Translations under genes and position numbers: made by a program
Virus record (IMG/VR): IMGVR_UViG_3300046524_000415
Coordinates: 1-35,232 of that record
Reading direction: 5' to 3' (one strand)
From: a virus
Length of the DNA: 35,232 bases
Notes under the pieces: model-generated
What the model saw: the letters and a program-made list of their open reading frames with translations, nothing else
Databases searched by the model: none
What the model was told of the DNA's origin: nothing
In this document: positions 5,515 to 25,154 of the stretch, piece after piece
Position numbering within the stretch: position 1 is the stretch's first letter
Layout of the letters: each line of letters begins with the position of its first letter

Positions 5515-5787
5515 CTACTCCTCCGACGACCGATCGATCGGGTCATCCGCAACGCTCATGTATTGCTTGATGCTCGGCTGCCCCAGCGCGATCGTGTTAA
5601 GCATCCCGACGCCAAGCTGTCGCGCGAATTCATCGTCAAGCTTGAAATCGTCCTCATCAGCCAGCACCACCCCCATTCGCCCGGCCAGGAGGGGAGCCAG
5701 CAAGTTTGGCTCAATTGTGTAAGCGATTAACTGTTGCAGGTTCTCGTCGTAGCTCAGAACCACGGAATACGGCGGATGTTTGGCCAT
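5515..5787 (-). CDS. Putative immunity protein of the Rhs-like protein
   Basis: This 90-residue protein begins MAKHPPYSVVLSYDENLQQL at an ATG that overlaps the Rhs stop codon (TGATG at 5785-5789), so it is translationally coupled to it. It is soluble and acidic, ending in DDPIDRSSEE. The family is not recognised. Position and coupling behind a YD-repeat protein with a variable tip are those of a cognate immunity gene; protection against that tip is inference. Confidence 0.65.
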   Translation of the reverse strand: MAKHPPYSVVLSYDENLQQLIAYTIEPNLLAPLLAGRMGVVLADEDDFKLDDEFARQLGVGMLNTIALGQPSIKQYMSVADDPIDRSSEE

Positions 5788-8174
5788 CAATAACCTCTGC
5801 ATTCTTGATATCTTGTGAACGCTTTTGCCATGCACAGCGCTTGCAGACGCCTGCTCCTCGGGCCGGCGAGCGCAGTGCACACGTCCCGATCGTACTCGAA
5901 TTGGTTGTAGCACTTACTCTCGTGATCTTCTCGACCGCCGCACTTTACTATTCCCCCGTCCCCGCTTCCGGTTCCGAAGAGGGAACTGTAAAGCGTCGAA
6001 CTCTTCGCCGAACTGGTCAGATCCGGCACAAGCACAGGATACGGGACCTGCGACTGATCGCTCAGCATCAGTTCCGTTGTCTCGCCCCATGCTGGAAGTG
6101 TAGCGCTCAGTTCACTTCCGAAAAGTTTCCCCGTCAACGTGGCTTTCCAACGCATGTAGCACTCGACGCAGATGTCTGGTACGAATGCCGGAGTATCCGA
6201 CTGCAGCCCTGTGAGACTGGCGGACGGTGCAACCGGGTCATTGCCCAGTTCCCAGTTGGTGAGCCACACTCCTAGCTCAGCGTCGCTGATCGGCTGCCAC
6301 CACGCGCCGCTACTTGAGACCTTCGCTGAATGTGACAAAACCGTGCCATTTGCGGCGTACTGGTAATCGACTGCCAGTACACGGGCGAGTCCACCATTTA
6401 CCGAACTTGCCGGTTCGCTATACTGAAAAGACTTTACGCGACCACGCTCGTCGTAAGCGATGCCTGCCTGGCCACTGTTACCCGCAATCTGTGTCGCACG
6501 GTTCGCGGCATCACGACCGAGTGTTCGCATTGCCCAACCTGATACGGCATCCTGCGTCGTCGCGATATTGCCATGTGCGTCATACGTGTAGGTCCAGTCT
6601 TCAGTCTTCGCGCCATTCCGGATGACGGTGGCAGACAGGAGACGGCCGGCCTGATCGTAGCGCGCCCCGACTGTCATCTGATAGCCCGTCCCAACCGCCT
6701 GCATTCCCTGTTCGCCCGTCAGGTCGGTTGTCTGCTGCTCTGCGTAGCCAGTGACGTTGCCTCCTGTGTCGTAGACGAACGCCCTGATCTTGCCCGGTGT
6801 GGAGACCAGATGCGGGCGCAATGAGCTGCTGTCACTGTACTCAATCGTCGTTACTGTCTTGCTGCCGGCGACTATTGCAATTGCTTTCGTTGGTCGGTTG
6901 GCGCCGTCCCACGTGTACTGTGTATTCCCATCCGGGCTAACTCTTTGCTTCAAGTTCCCTGACGTATCCCACGTACGTGACACCGTGCCACCAGGTGTGA
7001 CAATTGAGCCAGGACGCGACGTGTCTCCGACAGTAAAGGAATAGCTGCTGTTGCCCGACATGTCGCTGACCGTGGTCGCGCTCGAGCCATAACTTAGTGA
7101 AACATTGCGTGTCGTGTCAGGATGAGTGACTGAGATTGCACGTCCGCTGGAGTCGTAGGTCCATGTTGCGATCCTCGAGCCGGATTCGTCCTTGACGCCG
7201 GTCAATGCATTCGGAAAGCGGACGTCCTCGTACAGATATTGACGAATGTGGTCGTATGGTGCCGTAACCGAAACAAGATTGCCCTTTCCGTCGTACGCAT
7301 AGGTTGTGGGCATTCCCAAAGGATCGACCAGCATAACGATACGGTCGTTACTGTCATACTCCACGCGGATAGAGGTCGCAGTCTGCGACGTCACGTTATC
7401 GACTGGCCACTGGGCTATCGATGACAGGCGCTGCTTGCCGTCGTAGATAGCCTTGCGGATCACTCCCGTTCGGGTCGTCTCAGAGTAAAGCCGACCGGTG
7501 CTATCCGAGTAAGCCTCAGTCGTACCAAGCCGTTCGTCTTTCAGGTAGAAGTATCCGTCGCCAGCTTTCGTCAACGAAAGACCCGAAGTTCCCGGCACAG
7601 CCCACGCTCCACTGACCCACTTGAATATTAGAGGCTGCCCGTTACCCCGATAAGCGGCGATTTTAGGCACGCTCGCATTGATCGAGGTCAGGTCAAGCCG
7701 TCGCTGCCAGTTGCTGACCCAATAGCCCCCCATCGCTGTCTGGGCTTTATCGAACGGCTTCGAAAGATAGCTACGGCTGAACACAAGTGGCGAAGTGTCG
7801 CCGCTTGCAAAGTCAGCTTCAGAGAGCGTGACAATCCCGTTTGCCGGAAACACCGGGTCTGCCACGGGGCAGGTATCGTCCGGCGTACCGCCACCCGCAC
7901 CGCCGCAATAGTCCGACACATAAGACGTATTCCCGCAATTGTAGTAATACATTGCATTATTGGAATCCTCCGGTCCGTTCGTCCCCGGCATGGTGCCTGC
8001 GACCTGTACCGCGCACATTGGTGTACCGGGTACTCCTAATGACTTTCTGTACAGACTAAAGCATTCATCCTCTGTTGCCGCATTAGTGTGGGCAACAGTC
8101 ATTAGCAGCCCAGTGGCAACAATGAGGCGAATAACCCCGCCCGATAAACTATTAGTGAATTTCCGCGCTTTCAT
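5787..8174 (-). CDS. Sec-exported YD-repeat (Rhs-like) protein with novel tip
   Basis: This 795-residue protein starts at 8174, with GGAG just upstream, and opens with a Sec signal peptide (hydrophobic GGVIRLIVATGLLMTVAHTNA). A DUF6531-like N-terminal module follows (GIVTLSEADFASGDTSPLVF), then many YD/RHS repeats (for example DPLGMPTTYAYDGKGNLVSV). The hyperconserved end of canonical Rhs cores (a DPxGL-type motif) is absent. The last ~200 residues look unrelated to repeats and end in a small Cys-rich segment (CYNQFEYDRDVC, then RLQALCMAKAFTRYQEC). It is probably an exported contact or secreted toxin-like protein. It is shorter than T6SS Rhs proteins and has no PAAR or VgrG neighbour. Confidence 0.8.
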   Translation of the reverse strand: MKARKFTNSLSGGVIRLIVATGLLMTVAHTNAATEDECFSLYRKSLGVPGTPMCAVQVAGTMPGTNGPEDSNNAMYYYNCGNTSYVSDYCGGAGGGTPDDTCPVADPVFPANGIVTLSEADFASGDTSPLVFSRSYLSKPFDKAQTAMGGYWVSNWQRRLDLTSINASVPKIAAYRGNGQPLIFKWVSGAWAVPGTSGLSLTKAGDGYFYLKDERLGTTEAYSDSTGRLYSETTRTGVIRKAIYDGKQRLSSIAQWPVDNVTSQTATSIRVEYDSNDRIVMLVDPLGMPTTYAYDGKGNLVSVTAPYDHIRQYLYEDVRFPNALTGVKDESGSRIATWTYDSSGRAISVTHPDTTRNVSLSYGSSATTVSDMSGNSSYSFTVGDTSRPGSIVTPGGTVSRTWDTSGNLKQRVSPDGNTQYTWDGANRPTKAIAIVAGSKTVTTIEYSDSSSLRPHLVSTPGKIRAFVYDTGGNVTGYAEQQTTDLTGEQGMQAVGTGYQMTVGARYDQAGRLLSATVIRNGAKTEDWTYTYDAHGNIATTQDAVSGWAMRTLGRDAANRATQIAGNSGQAGIAYDERGRVKSFQYSEPASSVNGGLARVLAVDYQYAANGTVLSHSAKVSSSGAWWQPISDAELGVWLTNWELGNDPVAPSASLTGLQSDTPAFVPDICVECYMRWKATLTGKLFGSELSATLPAWGETTELMLSDQSQVPYPVLVPDLTSSAKSSTLYSSLFGTGSGDGGIVKCGGREDHESKCYNQFEYDRDVCTALAGPRSRRLQALCMAKAFTRYQECRGY

Positions 8175-8544
8175 TTTTCTCCTTCGAATTTTCGCTTTTA
8201 AGAACGGTGCGACAACTTTCAGTGAGATTGCAACAGCCGCATATCCGACAACTCCTAAAGTTGTTGCTCTCTTGCGCCGACACAAACACGTTCGGCTAAC
8301 TTACCCAATCGCGCAGGAAAATTCGTACACGTCTGTCAGGGCGGGACGAAATGTGAATGCGGCAAATGAAAAGGCCGGACCAAAACAGAACGTAGAACGC
8401 GCGGGGAAATCACACGACCGAACTCAAGAAAAAGCGGGGCGCCTTGATGGACGCCTCGAAATAAAAGTGAAGGCACTGTAGACGTTTACAATTCCGATAG
8501 TAATCCGACGTACTATCCCGATAAACTCATGCACTTCGCATCTG
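8175..8544. other. Upstream region of the rhs gene
   Basis: No supported gene. It holds the ribosome-binding site of rhs and an inverted repeat at 8496-8517 (GATAGTA, 8 bases, TACTATC) that could be an operator. A lone half-site resembling family I (AAATCACAC) is at about 8408-8416. The border between island and phage genes probably lies here. Confidence 0.35.
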
Positions 8545-11504: not shown

Positions 11505-11519
11505 ATCACACCCTATGAT
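11505..11519. repeat. Family I repeat, site 4 (ATCACACCCTATGAT)
   Basis: It forms the whole junction between two genes. On the minus strand it encodes N-H-R-V-stop of the methyltransferase, then AGGG and, two bases on, the ATG at 11502. Confidence 0.9.
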
Positions 11520-12096
11520 TGTCACAACCCACTGCGAGCAGCAGCGTATGCACACCGGTTCCCTGTTCACTGAACGTGCCAGACGGCAACGCCCGCCACG
11601 TGCCTCCGCGTTCCTGCACGAGCGACACGAGCTGCTCCGCCTGACGTGGACCCGCTGCACAGATCGCCGCCATGCGGCCGTCCGGTTTGAGCATCGACAG
11701 CGCACGGCGGATATGCACGATGTCCGCGCCGCGTTCGAACGGTGGATTCATGAGGATGCAGTCGAAGCGATAGGCCGGTGCCCATTCGACGAAGTCCGCG
11801 TGTATCACATCGCCCTCGGGGTCGATGCGCCTGAGCGCTTTCACCAGATCAGCATTGATCTCTACCGACATGCGCCTGCACGCGGGCTGCGCACGCAGGA
11901 TGGCGCGCAGAATCTGGCCGGTGCCCGCGCTCGGCTCCAGCACGCTCTCGTCTGACTGTGGCGACACAAGCTGCACCATATGGTTCGCAAGTGATGTGGG
12001 AGTCGGGAACAGCTGGTTCGCAGCGACCACCTGAATACCTGCCTTCAGCTGCTGTTTCATCGCAGCCATGCGCTGCGCCATTTCATTGCGGTCCAT
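11506..12096 (-). CDS. N6-adenine-type DNA methyltransferase (phage)
   Basis: This 196-residue class I SAM-dependent methyltransferase has motif I VLEPSAGTG at residues 52-60, which binds SAM, and the catalytic NPPF at 117-120, the form found in N6-adenine (or N4-cytosine) DNA methylases. An upstream PTPTSLANHMVQL segment is typical of this group. It has no target-recognition domain beyond the core, so specificity is unknown. It probably protects phage DNA from restriction or has a regulatory role. The ATG lies two bases after a family I repeat and the stop within another. A broken paralogue is at 1712-2187. Confidence 0.85.
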   Translation of the reverse strand: MDRNEMAQRMAAMKQQLKAGIQVVAANQLFPTPTSLANHMVQLVSPQSDESVLEPSAGTGQILRAILRAQPACRRMSVEINADLVKALRRIDPEGDVIHADFVEWAPAYRFDCILMNPPFERGADIVHIRRALSMLKPDGRMAAICAAGPRQAEQLVSLVQERGGTWRALPSGTFSEQGTGVHTLLLAVGCDNHRV

Positions 12097-12098
12097 AA

Positions 12099-12113
12099 AT
12101 CACACCCTATGAT
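12099..12113. repeat. Family I repeat, site 5 (ATCACACCCTATGAT)
   Basis: Two bases before the methyltransferase ATG at 12096, with the same spacing as sites 2 and 4. Confidence 0.9.
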
Positions 12114-12151
12114 TTTTCTGTGGGGCGCACTGCGCCCCCTGGTTGTCGGAG

Positions 12152-13516
12152 TTACGCGGCCTGGTCCATCGCGGGCGCAGCAGGTGGGTCGATGCGTTTG
12201 GCATCCGTCAGATAAACTGCGACCAGCCCGCCAGTCCGGACAACCGATCGCACACGGTGCCGCCCGTACTCCGCCGCGCCGTCAACTGCACCCCTGACGT
12301 CCGGACGGTAGCCGCCTGGACGACGCGCACCCTGACCGAGTTCGCGCGAACCCTTGTAGTCCTTGCAAGTGCTGTCCCACTCAGCCTTCGTCATGTGGTG
12401 AAACCCGTCACCGGGGTAATTGCACATCGGCGGCAGCTTCACTGCGGCCTTCATGCGCGCAGCGTCCTCCGCACTCGGAGCGCGGTAGTCCTGCACCTCC
12501 TCGATGCCACGTACCCGCACATAGCGGCACGTGGTGGTTACGCTGACGGTCACGCCGTCCTTGCGGGTAACCCGTACGACGGGCAGCCATTCGCCGCGCA
12601 CCTTTACCTGGCCACCTGGTTCGATCTCGAAGCGATCCGCCATCAGACCACCCTGCTCACCCAGCATCGCGCGCTCGTACAGCAGACGGTTGTCGTAATG
12701 GGCGATCCAGCGGCGGTTCCATGTGATGCCACGCTCGTAGGCAGGTACACAGAGATCGCGTGCCTGTTCGACAGTAACAACGCCGCCCTCAAGCGCCGAC
12801 CAGATGCTCATGTCGCCTTCGTACTGGTTCGCTGGCGGATTGCGCGGGTAGTCGGCTAGCGGGAACGTCCGGTGCAGCGTCGAACGACCTGCCAGCGCAA
12901 GCGCATGCTTCATGTCCAGACCGTCCGTGCGCCACAGCTTCACGAACTTCTCACCACCCTGCAGGCTGCGTTCGAACCTGCGACGGTCACTCTCGATACG
13001 CTTGATGCGGCGGTGACGGACGTCCGGCCGCTCCTTGTACTTCGCATTGCGCAGCGCACCCTGGGCGCGCTGCTCCCAGTATTCGGACGTCTCCCACATC
13101 TTCACGGCATGGCGCATGCCGTTCTCGATGCGCTCGGCATCCTTGCGGGCACGCCGCTCGCTGTGATGGCCCACGAGAATTGGCTGGCCGAACGGAATGT
13201 GTTCCGTGATGGCAGAGACGGCACGATGGGCGCGATCCGCATCCAGGGCGCGGCGCTCGCTATATCCCTCGAAGCGGTCGGCGCGCTGTTCCGCACGGTC
13301 CACCAGACCCGTGTCCTCGTCGCCGATCTCCCCGCACAGTTCAAGCAGCAGGTCCTCACGCAGAGGTGTCCACATGGGGGCGACGAACAGATCCTGCTTC
13401 GGTGCCCAGGAAAAGCCCGCTGCCTTCACGCGCCGGTACGTTTCCTCGTCCAGCCTGAACGTGGAGTACAGACGCAGCTTGTTGTCCTCGGGTGAATAGG
13501 TTGCTGTCAGGGTCAT
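12152..13516 (-). CDS. DUF3560 family protein
   Basis: This 454-residue protein starts at 13516 behind GAAGAA. The N-terminus (MTLTATYSPEDNKLRLYSTF, then VKAAGFSWAPKQDLFVAPMW) and the GQPILVGHHSERRARKDAER segment are the signature of DUF3560, a family widespread on proteobacterial plasmids and phages. Its activity is unknown to me. The middle is rich in Arg and Glu and likely helical (ERPDVRHRRIKRIESDRRRF). The C-terminal ~80 residues are a variable tail. It is the largest gene of the leftward operon, with a family I repeat 39 bases upstream and another downstream. Confidence 0.85.
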   Translation of the reverse strand: MTLTATYSPEDNKLRLYSTFRLDEETYRRVKAAGFSWAPKQDLFVAPMWTPLREDLLLELCGEIGDEDTGLVDRAEQRADRFEGYSERRALDADRAHRAVSAITEHIPFGQPILVGHHSERRARKDAERIENGMRHAVKMWETSEYWEQRAQGALRNAKYKERPDVRHRRIKRIESDRRRFERSLQGGEKFVKLWRTDGLDMKHALALAGRSTLHRTFPLADYPRNPPANQYEGDMSIWSALEGGVVTVEQARDLCVPAYERGITWNRRWIAHYDNRLLYERAMLGEQGGLMADRFEIEPGGQVKVRGEWLPVVRVTRKDGVTVSVTTTCRYVRVRGIEEVQDYRAPSAEDAARMKAAVKLPPMCNYPGDGFHHMTKAEWDSTCKDYKGSRELGQGARRPGGYRPDVRGAVDGAAEYGRHRVRSVVRTGGLVAVYLTDAKRIDPPAAPAMDQAA

Positions 13517-13555
13517 TTCTTCTTCCTTGTCTGAATGGATGGAGTGGTATGAAAA

Positions 13556-13570
13556 ATCACACCCTGTGAT
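13556..13570. repeat. Family I repeat, site 6 (ATCACACCCTGTGAT)
   Basis: Perfect palindrome at the junction of the zinc-finger and DUF3560 genes; it encodes the N-H-R-V-stop end of the former. Confidence 0.9.
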
Positions 13571-13862
13571 TTTCTGGAGCGGCATCTGCGCCGGCATCGC
13601 TTTCCCGCGAGGCGCGCCGCTTGGCGATGCCTGCCGCACCCAGCGCACGCTGGACCCAGTACCCCGCCTGGTTCAGCGTCATGCCCTTCGCCTGCATTTC
13701 CTCTACCGTCATGCAGCGGCGGCGCGCGGCTTCGCCGGGTGTGCCGAAAGGCCCGGTGCGGTGCGCATCGAATGAGGAAGTGGAATTGAAGAACTGGCCG
13801 CAGCCGGGACACTGGTTGCGGTCGCCAGTCAGCCGGCGGCGCGTGTTCTGCATACTGTTCAT
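13557..13862 (-). CDS. FDXHR-type phage zinc-finger protein
   Basis: This 101-residue protein has CPGCGQFFNSTSSFDAHRTG at residues 18-37 and a further Cys at 50: a CxxC...FDxHR...C zinc site as in the phage FDXHR zinc-binding family. Proteins of this type are common in early regions of Burkholderia phages; a nucleic-acid or regulatory role is likely but unproven. The Met at residue 4 is an alternative start. The end ENHRV is encoded by a family I repeat. Confidence 0.8.
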   Translation of the reverse strand: MNSMQNTRRRLTGDRNQCPGCGQFFNSTSSFDAHRTGPFGTPGEAARRRCMTVEEMQAKGMTLNQAGYWVQRALGAAGIAKRRASRESDAGADAAPENHRV

Positions 13863-17941: not shown

Positions 17942-18033
17942 CCTATGACTCCGTTGAGTAGGGGACTTCATTATCCGGCTCGCTTTTCAAACGCCATCCT
18001 GATATTCACGTGATGCAGCACATGGAGACCAGC

Positions 18034-19527
18034 ATGAATGACGCCCCCGGTATCAGCTACTCGCCTTCGCCAACGATACTCGCGCTGCATAATTCCAGCG
18101 CTTTCATCAAGGCAGTCGCGGGTCCGCCTGGCGGCGGCAAGTCGGTCGGTGCGTTCATGGACGGGCTGCTGCGGTGCATGCGCCAGCCTGCCGACCGTGA
18201 GGGGGTGCGGCGCTTCCGTCTCGCCTGTGCGCGCGCGACCTACCCGAAGCTGAAGACCACGACGCTGAAGACCGTGCAGGACTGGATGCCGCACGAGTTC
18301 GGCGACGTGAAACTGACCGCGCCGATGGAGGGGCTGTACACGTTCCCGCTGCCGGACGGCACGCGCGTGCGATTTGAAGTGCTGTTCATCGCCTTGGAGG
18401 ATGAGCAGGACATCGAGGACATGAAGTCACTTGAAGTGAGCATGTTCTGGCTGCATGAGGCGACGGAACTCTCCGAGGCGATCCTGCGCATCGCGGTGCA
18501 ACGGGTCGGACGCTACCCGTCGATGAAGAATGGCGTGATCTGCGCGGAGCCGGGGGTGGTGCTGGACTTCAACCTGCCGGACCAGGCGCACTGGCTTTAT
18601 AAGCGCTTTGTTGAAGGTGAGCCGTTGCCGGTGATCGAACTGCTGGACGGCAGGACATTCACACCGACGCTCGCGCTGTTCATGCAGCCGCCTGCGGTCA
18701 TTTGCGACAACGAAGAAAGTGTGGAAGCTGACGGCGCGCCGCCCCGCTTCAGGCTCAACCCGGATGCGGAGAACCTGCACAACCTGCTGCCGGACTATTA
18801 CGCGAACCAGCTCGCGACGCTGCGCTGGCCGGAAATCCGTTCGTTCCTGCTGATGCGCTGGACCCCGACCGCGCTCGGCAAGCTCGTGCATCCGGAGTTT
18901 TCCGCGCAGGCGCATGTGGGGAAGCTGCGCACGGCACCCGTGACCGGCGAGGAAACGCTGATTGGCATCGACACGTCGGGGCTGCACCCCGGCGCGGTGT
19001 TCGGCCAGCCGCAGGCGGGCCAGCTCGTCGTGATGGATGAAGGCTATGCGCCGGACATGGCGTTCGAACAGTTCATCCAGGAAGTGCTGCTGACGATCAT
19101 CGCGAAGCGCTACCACGGCACGCCGCTGCTCGCGGTGTGCGACCCATCGAACCCGAGGGATGCGAGAACGGGCCTCACGCCCGTGCAACTGCTGCAGCGC
19201 TACCAGATCAGGGCGATCCCTGCGGCCACGAACCGGTTCGCGCTGCGCAAGGCGGCAGTCGCGCGGCTACTGAACCGCCGTCACGGCTGCGTGATCGACC
19301 CGGCCTGCACGATGCTGATAGATGGCCTGGGCAGGAGCTACGTGCACCGCAAGCTGCGTGCGACCACCACAACCGGGCTCGACTACGCGAACGAGCCGGT
19401 CAAGGGGCCGACCTCGCACGTGGTCGAGGCATTCCAGTACCTCGCCGTGCATCTCGCGCACATCAGCCCCGAGGAGGAAGTCGTGGACCGGTCGAGGGTG
19501 CAGGTCGCGAAGCGACGGGTGGTCTGA
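18034..19527 (+). CDS. terL: Terminase large subunit (packaging ATPase/nuclease)
   Basis: This 497-residue motor protein cuts and pumps phage DNA into the prohead. I chose ATG 18034 because GGAG lies before it. Walker A is GPPGGGKS at residues 30-37. A Walker B-like segment with its catalytic Glu is VSMFWLHEATEL. In the C-terminal nuclease half, LIGIDTSGLHPGAVF and LAVCDPSNPRDA give the expected metal-binding Asp residues. Length is normal. A one-mismatch family II repeat lies in the gene at 18424-18434. It is followed by a group of inserted genes. Confidence 0.9.
   Translation: MNDAPGISYSPSPTILALHNSSAFIKAVAGPPGGGKSVGAFMDGLLRCMRQPADREGVRRFRLACARATYPKLKTTTLKTVQDWMPHEFGDVKLTAPMEGLYTFPLPDGTRVRFEVLFIALEDEQDIEDMKSLEVSMFWLHEATELSEAILRIAVQRVGRYPSMKNGVICAEPGVVLDFNLPDQAHWLYKRFVEGEPLPVIELLDGRTFTPTLALFMQPPAVICDNEESVEADGAPPRFRLNPDAENLHNLLPDYYANQLATLRWPEIRSFLLMRWTPTALGKLVHPEFSAQAHVGKLRTAPVTGEETLIGIDTSGLHPGAVFGQPQAGQLVVMDEGYAPDMAFEQFIQEVLLTIIAKRYHGTPLLAVCDPSNPRDARTGLTPVQLLQRYQIRAIPAATNRFALRKAAVARLLNRRHGCVIDPACTMLIDGLGRSYVHRKLRATTTTGLDYANEPVKGPTSHVVEAFQYLAVHLAHISPEEEVVDRSRVQVAKRRVV
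18424..18434. repeat. Family II repeat, near-perfect (GAAGTCACTTG)
   Basis: One mismatch; inside terL it reads as codons AAG-TCA-CTT (Lys-Ser-Leu), the same frame as at 26639 and 29068. Confidence 0.6.
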
Positions 19528-19539
19528 GAGGGCTACCGC

Positions 19540-20121
19540 TCAGGTCGTCGTGGTGTCCGACTGGCGGGCGTTCTCAACAATCGGTTTCCACTCCCCATTC
19601 CGAAGTTTCCGGTCGACCTGACGCACAACTTTGGCAATTACGTATGCTCTGCCTCCTTGCGCGTCATGGCACTCCTTCTGGCATGTTTCGCAGTAAAAAT
19701 GTGTCCGCCATTCGCCATATTCCCGATTTTCCGAATACACAAGCGTGGTATCACATGAAGGGCAATATGCCCGCGGCTCGCTCATGGTTCCGCCAGGGTA
19801 GCTCCAGCGCCAGACAATGCCGAAGAAGCGATCGGACGTGTAGTCGGTCGTTCGTGGTTCATTGTCCCGCCACTGCTGCACAACGTGAATTCCAAAGGCC
19901 AGAATCCATAGCCCCAGCGCGCCATACCCTAGATAGAGCGACCAGACCGGGACCGTCGCGTGCCCGGCAAAATGCGCGTACATGTTGCCGACAAGCCTCA
20001 TAAGCCAGGCCCACACGCCTGGCATCCATGCCCACACTGCTCCCAACGCTGCCCCGATGACTGTAGTAAGGACGCCTCCGATAACAGTTGTTCTGATGGA
20101 GTCGGTATTGGATGCGCTCAT
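19540..20121 (-). CDS. Membrane protein with C-terminal zinc ribbon (moron)
   Basis: This 193-residue reverse-strand gene follows terL. Two membrane segments are visible: VIGGVLTTVIGAALGAVWAW near residue 13 and SLYLGYGALGLWILAFGIHV near residue 60. After a Trp-rich stretch (FFGIVWRWSYPGG), a cytosolic zinc ribbon follows with CPSC and CETC pairs and a nearby extra Cys, then a basic tail. Inner-membrane proteins with a zinc ribbon occur as prophage cargo. A role in exclusion or defence is plausible but not shown. Confidence 0.7.
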   Translation of the reverse strand: MSASNTDSIRTTVIGGVLTTVIGAALGAVWAWMPGVWAWLMRLVGNMYAHFAGHATVPVWSLYLGYGALGLWILAFGIHVVQQWRDNEPRTTDYTSDRFFGIVWRWSYPGGTMSEPRAYCPSCDTTLVYSENREYGEWRTHFYCETCQKECHDAQGGRAYVIAKVVRQVDRKLRNGEWKPIVENARQSDTTTT

Positions 20122-20193: not shown

Positions 20194-20493
20194 TTAGAAC
20201 TCGACGTCCCCACTGAGTGGGTCGTCCCCCATGGGTGGCGTGTCCATGGTCGCGTTGCGCCACCCTTCTTCCAGCAGGATCACGCGCAGGTTTTCGAGTG
20301 CAACGAGGTTACCGCCCACGTCGGCCTTCCAGCATTTGTCGATGACCTCGTACAGGCGCTTCATTTCCCCGATCCGGTCGCGCGTACGGATGATCTCCAG
20401 GATCAGGCAGCGCACCTCCGGGCCGTGCCGGTGCTCCACCCACAGGCGGCGCAGGTCATGGATCGTCGGAATGTCGAAGTCGGGTAGCGGCAT
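20194..20493 (-). CDS. Small phage protein under LexA-type control
   Basis: This 99-residue, acidic, helical protein (MPLPDFDIPTIHDLRRLWVE) lies on the reverse strand. Only ten bases before its ATG is a LexA-type box (20504-20519) that also overlaps a TATACT -10 candidate, so it should be induced by DNA damage. The body (CLILEIIRTRDRIGEMKRLY, then NLVALENLRVILLEEGWRNA) has no recognised family. An SOS-controlled small gene in a temperate phage often encodes an antirepressor or cell-cycle effector (Tum of phage 186 is an example). This role is inference. Confidence 0.65.
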   Translation of the reverse strand: MPLPDFDIPTIHDLRRLWVEHRHGPEVRCLILEIIRTRDRIGEMKRLYEVIDKCWKADVGGNLVALENLRVILLEEGWRNATMDTPPMGDDPLSGDVEF

Positions 20494-20631: not shown

Positions 20632-21978
20632 ATGGAGTTTTATCAGGGTGACGTAATTGACGGGCGATTTCGGGTTGTTCGCAACCTGAGTGATTCGGGC
20701 GGAATGGGTAAGGTACTGGTTGTTACCGACAACCAGCAGCAACTGCAAGGCGAGCTTGCGCTCAAATATTGTCGCGGAGCCGATCAGGAAATCCTCATGC
20801 GGTTTCGTCGTGAGGTACGAATCATGGCCGGTTTCGCGGGTAATTCGCGCGTTGCCCAGGTCTACTATGCAAACGTCGAACACAATCCGCCGTTTTTTGT
20901 GATGCGGTACTACCCCCAGGGCGACCTCTTGGGATTGATCGGCTTGCTTGCAGTCAACCATCTTGCGGCAGAACAGGTTTTCAATCTGATGATCGAGTGC
21001 ATTGGCGAACTCCATGCCAAGAATGTGCTCCATCGCGATATCAAGCCACAGAATTTTCTCCAGGAGAATGGCACCATTGTCGTTTCCGATCTGGGACTCG
21101 GTGCCGAAGTTGATTCGTTGACCCGGTTTACAGACAGCCTGGCTTATGCTGGTACTAGGGGATTTCTGCCGCCCGAATTTCACAACGGTGGCTTCAAACA
21201 CGCCGATGTGACGAGTGACATCTACATGCTGGGAAAGACGTTCTACGTGCTGCTAACAGGGCGTGATCCAACCTACATTGCCGACGATGGAATACACACG
21301 GCGCTGTACTACGTGATCGAGCGGTGCAGCGAGCAGAACAAAACTCGGCGATATGCAAGCCTGGCCGAGCTCAGGCAGTCGTTGAACCTGGCGTTCGACG
21401 TCGTACTGGGACGCGGTGGAGCAATCGGCAAGGCCAGTCAGCTTCTCGACGCCATTCAAAATACGCTCCAGGTTGAGAACAAGTTTTATCCTGAGCAGAT
21501 TGTCGAGTTTTTGAACACGCTAACGGTCCTTGACGCCGCAGACAAAGGAAGAATCTGCTCCCAGCTTGGCGTCCCGTTTATGATGGCGATAAGTCAGGGC
21601 ATGCTGATCGACCACATTCCGACGTTCCTTGGCGTCTACAAGCAGATGGTAGAAGACGGCCAGTACAGTTGGTCCTTCGCGGAGACCATCGCGGACAACA
21701 TGAAACGGATATTCGACGCGCCAGGCGTACCCGATCGGACAAAGGCGCTCGCCTTGGAGATTGCAATCGACGGAGCGGAAAGGATGAACCGGTTCGCCGC
21801 AATGAATACCTGTATCGCAATGATTACGTCGGTCAACGACGAATCGTTGGGAGCTTTGGTTGCAGGTGTGATGCAAAGGAACCAGCATCACTTCATCGGC
21901 AACATCGAGCCGTCGCAGTGTCGGAGTGATGCGATAAGACGCTTCTTGTGGGCAGTGAAGCAGGCTAACTCAAACTAA
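20632..21978 (+). CDS. Eukaryotic-like Ser/Thr protein kinase (phage moron)
   Basis: This 448-residue protein has a complete kinase domain: Gly-rich loop around residues 20-27 (SDSGGMGK), ATP-binding Lys45 in LALKY, helix C Glu near 61, catalytic loop HRDIKPQN at 134-141 with Asp136, and metal-binding Asp153 in DLG (instead of DFG). An activation segment AGTRGFLPPE and a TSDIYMLGKTFY helix follow. No membrane segment is seen, so it is cytosolic. Residues ~265-448 form a helical domain I do not recognise. Phage- and mobile-element-borne kinases of this type can act in anti-phage abortive infection (Stk2 of staphylococci). Placement in the moron block suggests that, by inference. Confidence 0.88.
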   Translation: MEFYQGDVIDGRFRVVRNLSDSGGMGKVLVVTDNQQQLQGELALKYCRGADQEILMRFRREVRIMAGFAGNSRVAQVYYANVEHNPPFFVMRYYPQGDLLGLIGLLAVNHLAAEQVFNLMIECIGELHAKNVLHRDIKPQNFLQENGTIVVSDLGLGAEVDSLTRFTDSLAYAGTRGFLPPEFHNGGFKHADVTSDIYMLGKTFYVLLTGRDPTYIADDGIHTALYYVIERCSEQNKTRRYASLAELRQSLNLAFDVVLGRGGAIGKASQLLDAIQNTLQVENKFYPEQIVEFLNTLTVLDAADKGRICSQLGVPFMMAISQGMLIDHIPTFLGVYKQMVEDGQYSWSFAETIADNMKRIFDAPGVPDRTKALALEIAIDGAERMNRFAAMNTCIAMITSVNDESLGALVAGVMQRNQHHFIGNIEPSQCRSDAIRRFLWAVKQANSN

Positions 21979-22331: not shown

Positions 22332-23009
22332 TCACGAGTCGAATTCATCTTCTGCGAGTTTTGGCAGGATGTAAACATCCTTCAATAGATGTTCGACAAC
22401 ATCCATTGCGAGTCCGAGTTGTCTTTCACTATGCGGCTTCACCTCATGTGCTGCAGCGTTTCCCAACGACCTTATCTTATGCAGAATCGTCGCACTAGCC
22501 GGGGTTAGAACGTGTTGCGCCGCCAAGTTATCAATTTTGGCAAGCAAATTACCCCCAGCCGCATTACGCTCCTTGCAGATCGTTTCTACTAACGCACGAA
22601 GACCGATGCCAGCAAGCACAGGCGAATTGTTAACAAGTGCCTGCAGTGTTTCTTTGTACACACGTCGCGTGTCAGGTGGGAGAAATCTCTCCCCGTCACC
22701 AAGGTCTTTTCGTCCTTCCAGACGCGAAGGATAGAGTTTTTCTTCCGTTGCGTATTCGTACTCTTCATGGCCGATTTGGACATAGTCTTCAGAGTTGCTG
22801 CTCGCGTTTCGGAAAGATGTGAAGCTGCAACCCTTGCAGCGAATTATCTGGTAGTGGTTATTCCAATGATAGTTGTATTCGTCGTCGCTTCCCGATTCGT
22901 CGAGTGAGACGACGACCTCATGCGCAGTCTTTCCGGTGCACTTTGAACAAGGCACCAGAACTTCTTCACCTTTTGAGCCGTTCAATTTTGTTGCAAGCTG
23001 CTCCGCCAT
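22332..23009 (-). CDS. DUF4145 domain protein with zinc-ribbon N-terminus (moron)
   Basis: This 225-residue protein has CSKC at residues 21-24 and CKGC further on, forming a zinc-ribbon-like N-terminal half. The C-terminal half (LAGIGLRALVETICKERNA, then LGNAAAHEVKPHSERQLGLA) is the DUF4145 pattern, found alone or attached to restriction and other defence enzymes, with the RALVE...HKIRxxGN.AAHE signature. It lies on the reverse strand before the portal gene and is less G+C-rich than its neighbours. It is probably an acquired cargo gene, perhaps anti-phage. The biochemical role is unknown. Confidence 0.8.
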   Translation of the reverse strand: MAEQLATKLNGSKGEEVLVPCSKCTGKTAHEVVVSLDESGSDDEYNYHWNNHYQIIRCKGCSFTSFRNASSNSEDYVQIGHEEYEYATEEKLYPSRLEGRKDLGDGERFLPPDTRRVYKETLQALVNNSPVLAGIGLRALVETICKERNAAGGNLLAKIDNLAAQHVLTPASATILHKIRSLGNAAAHEVKPHSERQLGLAMDVVEHLLKDVYILPKLAEDEFDS

Positions 23010-23165
23010 ACACCTTCCCCTAGTAACTGTTAAATTATTCGTAAAGTAAACTGCGAATCAAAAGTGAAATTGCCAGCATCGCGTATTCTCATCGACTTCT
23101 GCGTGCTTGTCGACTGTTCCCGGTAGTGCTTTACCTACCGCTGCCCAGCGTGCTAGAAGCCGTGC

Positions 23166-25154
23166 ATGGACATGACCTCGCAGTTTTCGATCGAGACGCC
23201 CGCCCCGAAAAGCTCCCTGCTCGATCCGGTGGCGGACCTCGTTCGCGACCGCTACCGGCGTGCGCGGCACTGGCGCGCGGTGGATCGCATTGGCAGGTAC
23301 ACCGTCGAACAGGCGCTGCAGAATTCCTACCGCCAGTACCACAGCATTCTCGATCCGCGCGACGCCGAGCTGGTTGATGCGTCGGGCATCGACCTCGATA
23401 TCTCGATCACGAAGCACAAGACTGACGTGCTGGTCGCGTGGATGCGTGACCTGCTTTTAAACAGCGCAGATGCACCGTTTGTCATCAGTCCGACGCCGCA
23501 GCCCGAGCTGTCCCCGATGGGCAAGGCGCAGGTTGTCCAGCAGGTCAAGAAACAGATGCTGACGCAGGGCGCAATGTCCGTGCCCCCCGGTCCCGATGGC
23601 ATCCTTGAAATGGTCCGCACGATGAAGGCGCAGCAGCTCGCCGCCGAGCAGGACGTCGCGCAGGCGGCAGCAAAGGGCATGCAGCAGAAGATTGAGGACC
23701 AGCTCATCGAGGCGTCGTTCCGCGACGAACTGCTGCAGTTCCTCACCAACTTCGCGCTCTACCCGTATGCGGTCATGACCGGGCCGACGCCTGAAATGCG
23801 GCCCGTCTTTGCGTGGCGCGGTGCGCGCCCGAAGCAGTCCTATGAGCCGATGCTGGCGGTACGCAACGTCAGCCCGTTCGACTACTTCTACTCGCCCGAC
23901 TCCCCTGGCGCAGGCAGAGGCACGTTCGATATCGTGCGTGACCGGATGACGAAGTACCGTCTCATGATGAGCGCGACCCTCCCCGGCTACATCACGAAGA
24001 ACGTGGTGGCGGCACTGGAGCACTTCGCACTGCCCGAAACGAACCGCGACTGGCTGAACCCGAACCCCGACAAGCCGATGATCGGTTCAATCCTGTGGGG
24101 GCTGGACGAGTCCATTGATGTGATCCGCCATTTCGGCCTGCTCTCCGGCCGCGAGCTGCGTCAGTACGGAATTTCCGTTGACGACACCGAGTATCACGAG
24201 ACGGAAGCCGTCGTGCTTGGAGGCTGGACGATCAAGCTCATGATTAACCCGAATCCAAATGTCTCGGAGCGCCCGATCTATGCGACGGCCTACCAGCGTA
24301 CGCCGGGCAAGCTCGCGGGGTACGGCATCGGCCAACTCGTGCGCGACATTGAGCGAGCGTTCATGGCCGCGCTGCGCGGCACGCTGGAGAACGTCAGCTA
24401 TTCGGTGGCGCCCCTGGGCGAGGTCGATTACCGGCGCATCCAGCGTTACATGGCCGAAGACCAGATCGGCAACGTGATGGCGGGCACGATGGTGCCGGTC
24501 GATCCCGATCCGGCGTCGGGTGGCAGGCCCGCACACTACTTTCATACCGTCCCGAGCATCACGTCCCAGACGATGCAGCTCATGCAGTTCTTCATTGACA
24601 TGGCAGACAGGTGGACGGGACTTCCGGCCGCGCTTTCGGGCCAGCCGGTCGGCACGGGTGTGAACCGGACATTCCGCGGCATCATGGCCCTGTATGGCAA
24701 TGCGCTGAAGGGCGTGCAGAGCGCACTGACCAATCTCGACATTGACCTGTTCGAACGTCTTGGTAATGCGTACTTCGACTGGAACATGAAGTACACCGAC
24801 GATCCCACGATCAAGGGCGATGCGAAGGTCAAGGCGCGCGGAACAAGTGGCCTGCTGGAAAAAGAAGTGGCGAAGCAGAACGCGCAGGACACGCTGCAGT
24901 TCATCGCCCAGCTCGCGCAGGGCGGTCAGGTTACCCCGGCAGTGCTGCGGTGGGCCATCGATCAGGCGCTGACGGCATCGGGCGTGCCGCTCGACCAGTT
25001 CCCCGCAGAGAGTACGCCCGCTGCACAGCAACAGGCGCTGCAGCAGGCCGTGCAGGGCCAGCCCGGTGCGCCGGGTGCGCCGTCACCACCAGGAGGTGCA
25101 AGTGTCCCGGATTCGAACGTGGTTGCGTCGTCGGCTCCTGGTCAGCCCGTGTGA
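23166..25154 (+). CDS. Phage portal protein
   Basis: This 662-residue protein follows the terminase block and precedes scaffold and capsid genes. The N-terminal part is basic and helical (LVRDRYRRARHWRAVDRIGR). A long middle domain holds portal-like segments (TAYQRTPGKLAGYGIGQLVR, DMADRWTGLPAALSGQPVGT), and the tail is rich in Gln, Pro and Ala. Portals form the dodecameric DNA channel at one capsid vertex. Size and order fit podovirus-like phages of Burkholderia. Identity rests on context and overall pattern rather than a short motif. Confidence 0.8.
   Translation: MDMTSQFSIETPAPKSSLLDPVADLVRDRYRRARHWRAVDRIGRYTVEQALQNSYRQYHSILDPRDAELVDASGIDLDISITKHKTDVLVAWMRDLLLNSADAPFVISPTPQPELSPMGKAQVVQQVKKQMLTQGAMSVPPGPDGILEMVRTMKAQQLAAEQDVAQAAAKGMQQKIEDQLIEASFRDELLQFLTNFALYPYAVMTGPTPEMRPVFAWRGARPKQSYEPMLAVRNVSPFDYFYSPDSPGAGRGTFDIVRDRMTKYRLMMSATLPGYITKNVVAALEHFALPETNRDWLNPNPDKPMIGSILWGLDESIDVIRHFGLLSGRELRQYGISVDDTEYHETEAVVLGGWTIKLMINPNPNVSERPIYATAYQRTPGKLAGYGIGQLVRDIERAFMAALRGTLENVSYSVAPLGEVDYRRIQRYMAEDQIGNVMAGTMVPVDPDPASGGRPAHYFHTVPSITSQTMQLMQFFIDMADRWTGLPAALSGQPVGTGVNRTFRGIMALYGNALKGVQSALTNLDIDLFERLGNAYFDWNMKYTDDPTIKGDAKVKARGTSGLLEKEVAKQNAQDTLQFIAQLAQGGQVTPAVLRWAIDQALTASGVPLDQFPAESTPAAQQQALQQAVQGQPGAPGAPSPPGGASVPDSNVVASSAPGQPV

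Follow-up and report, generated by a model that had tools for sequence, protein, structure and literature searches.

The window, i.e. the whole stretch of DNA analysed in this study, is a virus record of 35,232 bases. It carries a Ser/Thr kinase gene between the terminase and portal genes of a phage, accompanied by small genes on the reverse strand. The features of this region are as follows.

18010..19527, + strand: terminase large subunit (PHROG_2, 1.6e-12), left neighbour in the phage core
19528..23165, no strand assigned: accessory insert of 3,638 bp between terminase and portal, from the junction comparison with relatives
19540..20121, - strand: cargo gene, 193-aa protein with a putative membrane N-terminus and a Cys-rich C-terminus (sequence reading)
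20194..20493, - strand: cargo gene, 99-aa protein (ORF)
20632..21978, + strand: Ser/Thr kinase with C-terminal helical domain, 448 aa (ORF, alignment, AlphaFold2 model)
20632..21393, + strand: kinase domain, residues 1-254 (GGMG loop 23-26, K45, E61, HRDIKPQN 134-141, DLG 153-155)
21394..21975, + strand: C-terminal all-helical domain, residues 255-448 (alignment, AlphaFold2 model)
22332..23009, - strand: cargo gene, Zn-ribbon-like and DUF4145 protein (PF13643, 1.2e-18; PHROG_1305, 1e-31)
23166..25154, + strand: portal or head-tail adaptor of HMO-2011/SU10 type (PF23899, 2e-7), right neighbour in the phage core

The window terminase is 31-37% identical to the TerL or terminase-like proteins of BcepC6B, MEP301, Pmp11 and pSTEC648_2, and the portal is 81% identical to that of the closest phage relative (L103) and 42% to that of pSTEC648_2. 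In Pasteurella phage Pmp11, 2 bp separate the terminase gene from the portal gene, and in BcepC6B one small ORF lies between them. The two overlap in pSTEC648_2, a circular plasmid with structural genes collinear to those of the window; extra genes are also present in this gap in MEP301. The DNA similarity of L103 to the window resumes at position 23151, 15 bp ahead of the portal. Moreover, GC3 is 0.64 in the kinase gene and 0.50 in the DUF4145 gene, as against 0.73-0.85 in the core phage genes. Since the junction is closed or nearly closed in three relatives and the composition is deviant, the kinase is an accessory insert ('moron'), which separates genes that are neighbours in relatives and is unlike the core genes in composition. 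The terminase-portal junction is thus an accessory site, and the cargo status which the earlier note had proposed is borne out by the 3,638-bp insert. That note had further placed the kinase among reverse-strand cargo genes; the terminase and portal flanks and the orientation of the small neighbours were found as described, but the kinase itself lies on the plus strand, like the structural genes.

The 193-aa and 99-aa cargo proteins have no significant family in Pfam, PHROG or PADLOC, and the DUF4145 protein gives a weak match to the PADLOC system PD-T7-4 (1.9e-5). Its gene, which adjoins the portal, is the strongest composition outlier among the genes measured. A promoter and terminator consensus scan around the kinase performed no better than on shuffled sequence, and no tRNA or structured RNA was found within the window. 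Elsewhere in the record, an RHS-repeat protein of 832 aa is encoded in the left part (5787-8285, - strand), and methyltransferase and DUF3560 genes are located at 11506-13648. Relatives of the latter, common on conjugative plasmids, are 61-64% identical on Burkholderia and Denitratisoma plasmids, and the window may therefore be a phage-plasmid or a phage/plasmid mosaic. The 60.5-kb E. coli plasmid pSTEC648_2 (CP061838.1; L126/L127/L131), which has a ParB-family gene along with phage structural genes, is likely a phage-plasmid.

The kinase ORF is intact with an ATG start. Pfam Pkinase (PF00069) matches its residues 22-219 (3.8e-23), PHROG_2361 'serine-threonine kinase' matches as well, and the closest PDB sequences to the kinase domain are the bacterial StkP/PknB kinases. 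The VAIK-type lysine (K45), the helix-C Glu (E61), the HRD aspartate (D136) and the DxG aspartate (D153) are all present, in agreement with the earlier reading of a complete Ser/Thr kinase. In the alignment of 24 relatives, H134, R135, D136, K138, N141, D153 and G155 are invariant, and likewise S162, T167, P181, E182 and R240; the same holds for K45, E61 and the GGMG loop in every relative whose sequence extends there. The DLG at the DFG position, to which attention had been drawn, was also seen. Residue 154 is Leu in 14 and Phe in 10 of the 24 relatives, and because of this variation DLG is ordinary in the family; its reading as a mark of a degraded kinase was rejected, since Leu and Phe vary freely there. 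With the family alignment as input, AlphaFold2 models the whole kinase confidently as a protein of two parts (mean pLDDT 87), in which the activation loop (157-170), containing the invariant S162 and T167, has low confidence.

The C-terminal tail is predicted as an all-helical domain of about 9-11 helices (AlphaFold2: pLDDT 91, pTM 0.87). Y336, E351, A354, R387, A389, M391 and C394 are invariant in it, and its mean identity between the relatives and the window is about 38%, compared with 50% for the kinase half. Pfam and PADLOC models gave nothing above noise on residues 255-448 in any of 24 members, the NCBIfam matches of the window protein all fall in the kinase part, and the PDB sequence search with the tail returned nothing above noise. 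Fold comparison against PDB and viral structures gave nothing significant; the best matches were generic alpha-solenoids with TM of at most about 0.4, and the assignment of a known fold was dropped on this account. No stand-alone tail lacking a kinase was found among the viral contigs searched. The structure prediction and remote homology search recommended earlier have thus produced a confident helical model with no library match and with weakly similar counterparts in distant plasmid kinases (clade B and Streptomyces, below); the claim that this part, about 194 aa, belongs to no recognised family stands for Pfam, PADLOC, PDB sequences and folds. The C-terminal domain is new to the domain libraries and is conserved.

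Relatives of the window kinase, full-length or partial and with 38-50% identity across both halves, were found in at least about 25 places. They come from genomes, from two IMG/VR contigs and from plasmids of Acinetobacter, Variovorax and Cupriavidus. Some adjoin integrases and some are on chromosomes. In the genome and viral collections they were recovered by alignment-based scan, single-protein pattern scans of the same kinds of collections having found no relatives. The plasmid search gave full-length relatives at 44-46% identity in the three genera named, and the genome scan at least 19 further members, full-length or partial, at 38-50%; among its matches listed, these are clearly separate from generic kinases, which show about 30% identity in the kinase half only. 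The IMG/VR scan gave two members, one of them frameshifted. Two relatives are disrupted, L089 by a frameshift and L004 by reading in two frames; L004 and L006 are located on small Acinetobacter pittii plasmids which also bear blaOXA-72-type genes. Each of 19 genomes or records examined has a single copy (a frameshifted copy appears as two pieces). The family is rare in the sampled taxa: the kinase was found in 2 of 399 Burkholderiales and in 1 of 398 from the phylum of Thiocapsa, all three being carriers already known, and 4 of 176 in the genus Acinetobacter had a match, one of which is clade B and another a short weak match.

In the phylogenetic tree, the window kinase is placed beside a gammaproteobacterial MAG (L008, 50% identity) with support of 88/82; plasmid, chromosomal and IMG/VR copies are interspersed, and a cyanobacterial contig groups with an unclassified bin. 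The dN/dS of whole genes in close pairs is 0.06-0.16, with dN low relative to dS in both halves, and the kinase is under purifying selection. The recurrence of the full-length protein and this selection show that the ORF is not due to chance. The window kinase is a member of an uncatalogued, stand-alone family that is spread over mobile elements and a few chromosomes.

The all-against-all comparison of the relatives' neighbourhoods revealed no conserved partner gene, and the few neighbour genes in common are plasmid-backbone or close-relative matches. Neither the DUF4145 gene nor the other cargo genes of the window have a counterpart beside kinase relatives. The co-occurrence with neighbouring cargo that the earlier note had put forward for checking was accordingly not seen in other genomes, and a kinase-DUF4145 linkage was rejected. 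The known or candidate defence genes Hp1 and Hp2 lie directly downstream of the relative in L014, QatC is near the relative in L024, and HExxH (M78-type) proteins are near those in L002, L024 and L088. This presence of defence-type genes near some relatives, for which there is no matched background, is no more than suggestive of a link to immunity. Several loci have BrnTA, VapBC or RelE/NadS genes beside the kinase. From reading of the sequence, the relatives in L088 (2934-5954) and L089 have PAAR-like and Tae4-like genes as neighbours, and that in L026 (1857-10379) follows VgrG-like and DUF3396-like genes and has a phosphatase-like gene downstream. The earlier note had reckoned homologues in non-mobile contexts with a metabolic role as counting against defence; relatives are on mobile elements and no recurring metabolic operon was seen around them, but some are beside housekeeping genes (L018, L020) or T6SS-type genes (L088, L026). 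As the family also occurs in such non-defence contexts, a role in lysogeny control, addiction or other signalling is possible.

Clade B (L135-L137) comprises distant kinases of Acinetobacter plasmids that share the tail. The match is weak and lies above the controls: hmmsearch gave 4e-7 for L135, hhalign gave E 1.2e-6, and the clade B profile reached 68% against the tail, where none of 99 control proteins exceeded 1.7%. A PP2C phosphatase directly follows the kinase in all three plasmids (L135:4309-6380, L136:3144-5168, L137:2856-4880), with BrnTA nearby; this pairing resembles phosphorylation-based toxin-antitoxin defence. The kinases of two Streptomyces plasmids (L138/L139) share the tail with clade B (96.6%, E 5e-10); their likeness to the tail of the window's clade is weaker (37%, E 3.5e-4). 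Short kinase-PP2C pairs are also found on Acinetobacter baumannii and Vibrio plasmids, beside Septu PtuA/PtuB in L140 (1701-5495) and beside PtuB in L141 (1-5530), and such a pair is possibly a two-gene defence unit. No PP2C was found in the examined loci of the window's own clade (clade A), and the kinase-phosphatase parallel is therefore an indirect one for the window.

Few cases of kinase-based abortive infection are known to us, and to our knowledge the sensing of phages by single-gene kinases is an open question. With a probability of roughly 0.45, the window gene is best explained as a stand-alone, tail-gated kinase of mobile elements that would act like the abortive-infection kinases of Stk2/PD-T4-6 type. 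The carrier would be a tailed phage or phage-plasmid having the kinase as an accessory single-gene signalling gene, and the C-terminal helical domain would be both sensor and restraint. When the tail meets a trigger, which would probably be made by a competing phage, the kinase would autophosphorylate in the activation loop (S162/T167) and phosphorylate host proteins; growth would stop and the intruder could not replicate, as in Stk2. We infer the autoregulation by the tail, the trigger, the targets and the defence outcome, taking the tail as sensor or restraint and the kinase as effector by analogy with Stk2 (PMC6532042) and KKP (PMC11341870). A defence role of the window kinase is plausible on these grounds. 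A wider proposal, which we regard as tentative and somewhat doubtful, is that the tail (Y...[WF]..[AC][ED]..A ... N-R-[FW]) might be the mark of a superfamily of mobile immune kinases that has no name as yet. Its branches on Acinetobacter plasmids would have a PP2C off-switch in the operon, others would be on Streptomyces plasmids, and a further one, self-sufficient with a single gene, would include the window kinase; in all of them the tail would sense the infection.

Several other roles have been weighed against this abortive-infection reading. The kinase could be a regulator of lysogeny or host physiology, phosphorylating a repressor or nucleoid protein and tuning prophage silencing, with no primary role in defence. 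Prophage-borne KKP kinases do act on the silencer MvaU (PMC11341870), and many mobile elements bear the present family singly; but most of its members reside on plasmids and chromosomes where no phage lysogeny module was seen, and no regulator neighbour is conserved, which makes this role rather unlikely. An addiction (toxin-antitoxin) module, with a toxic kinase whose phosphatase antidote is linked in clade B and here is unlinked or replaced by self-restraint, would suit the PP2C genes after all three clade B kinases and the BrnTA, VapBC or RelE/NadS genes adjoining several loci. Given that clade A loci examined have no such phosphatase and that single genes spread partnerless, we assign it a low probability.

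A takeover kinase serving the lytic cycle of the phage itself, like T7 gp0.7, would fit the location in a phage genome and the strand, which is that of the structural genes. Such a function is improbable, since full-length relatives reside on plasmids and chromosomes, the gene is a compositional outlier with reverse-strand neighbours, and the terminase-portal junction is empty in related phages. It is very improbable that the kinase is an effector-linked or immunity-linked component of inter-bacterial competition: the L088/L089 and L026 copies have the PAAR-like, Tae4-like, VgrG-like and DUF3396-like neighbours mentioned above, whereas most relatives have no T6SS gene near and no export marker was noticed. 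Equally slight is the chance of a decayed passenger without function, to which the disrupted L089 and L004 copies would point, because the window copy is intact with all catalytic residues and dN/dS is low in full-length pairs. The compact and well-modelled family would make the trigger, the restraint and the targets directly testable, as it offers a conserved sensor-like domain, a phage-borne member, plasmid members in culturable Acinetobacter and a phosphatase-paired sister clade.

Membership of the window kinase in PD-T4-6, Stk2 or KKP is not established, and the likenesses to known systems are partial. The PASTA kinases StkP/PknB have the closest solved kinase domains, whereas a helical tail takes the place of PASTA repeats in the window protein. 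The stk of phage 933W is reportedly a prophage-encoded kinase that excludes another phage; it is likened here by description.

PD-T4-6, a single-gene kinase defence of E. coli (PMC9519451), shares the kinase domain and the one-gene architecture and is the best PADLOC match of the window (1.6e-34), but the matches cover only about residues 1-238, the kinase part. The relative L008 aligns to two PD-T4-6 models through residue 377-379, past the kinase domain, and there may be a remote link between the tails. The label also marks a PASTA-type kinase that occurs in each of the S. thermophilus genomes studied (PMC11514479; the repeats are read as PASTA from the structural match in that paper) and is therefore not diagnostic. 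PD-T4-6 was rejected as a firm label for both reasons, and 'PD-T4-6' calls made with profile libraries say more about the kinase fold than about a system.

In KKP (PfkA-PfkB-PfpC; Pf and other prophages), the kinases are the toxic part, a PP2C-type phosphatase acts as the antitoxin, and the system serves lysogeny control as well as defence (PMC11341870). The prophage-borne kinase is a point of likeness, and the phosphatase partner recalls clade B. However, KKP combines the phosphatase with two kinases that bear CSD and FHA domains, whereas the window has one kinase with neither domain; the defining set of CSD-kinase, FHA-kinase and phosphatase in one operon is absent at the window locus.

Stk2, an abortive-infection kinase of Staphylococcus, is likewise a bacterial Ser/Thr kinase encoded by a single gene and has a part outside the kinase domain. 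Its PADLOC profile PDLC02375 matches window residues 50-297 (1.5e-20), and this match stops early in the tail, whereas the Streptomyces kinases L138/L139 align to it nearly to the profile end. Comparison of the window tail by hhalign with a Stk2-like protein of the sampled class (L154, a stand-in for Stk2 itself) gave no similarity. For Stk2, activation of the kinase by a phage protein and killing of the cell via phosphorylation of core host proteins are described (PMC6532042).
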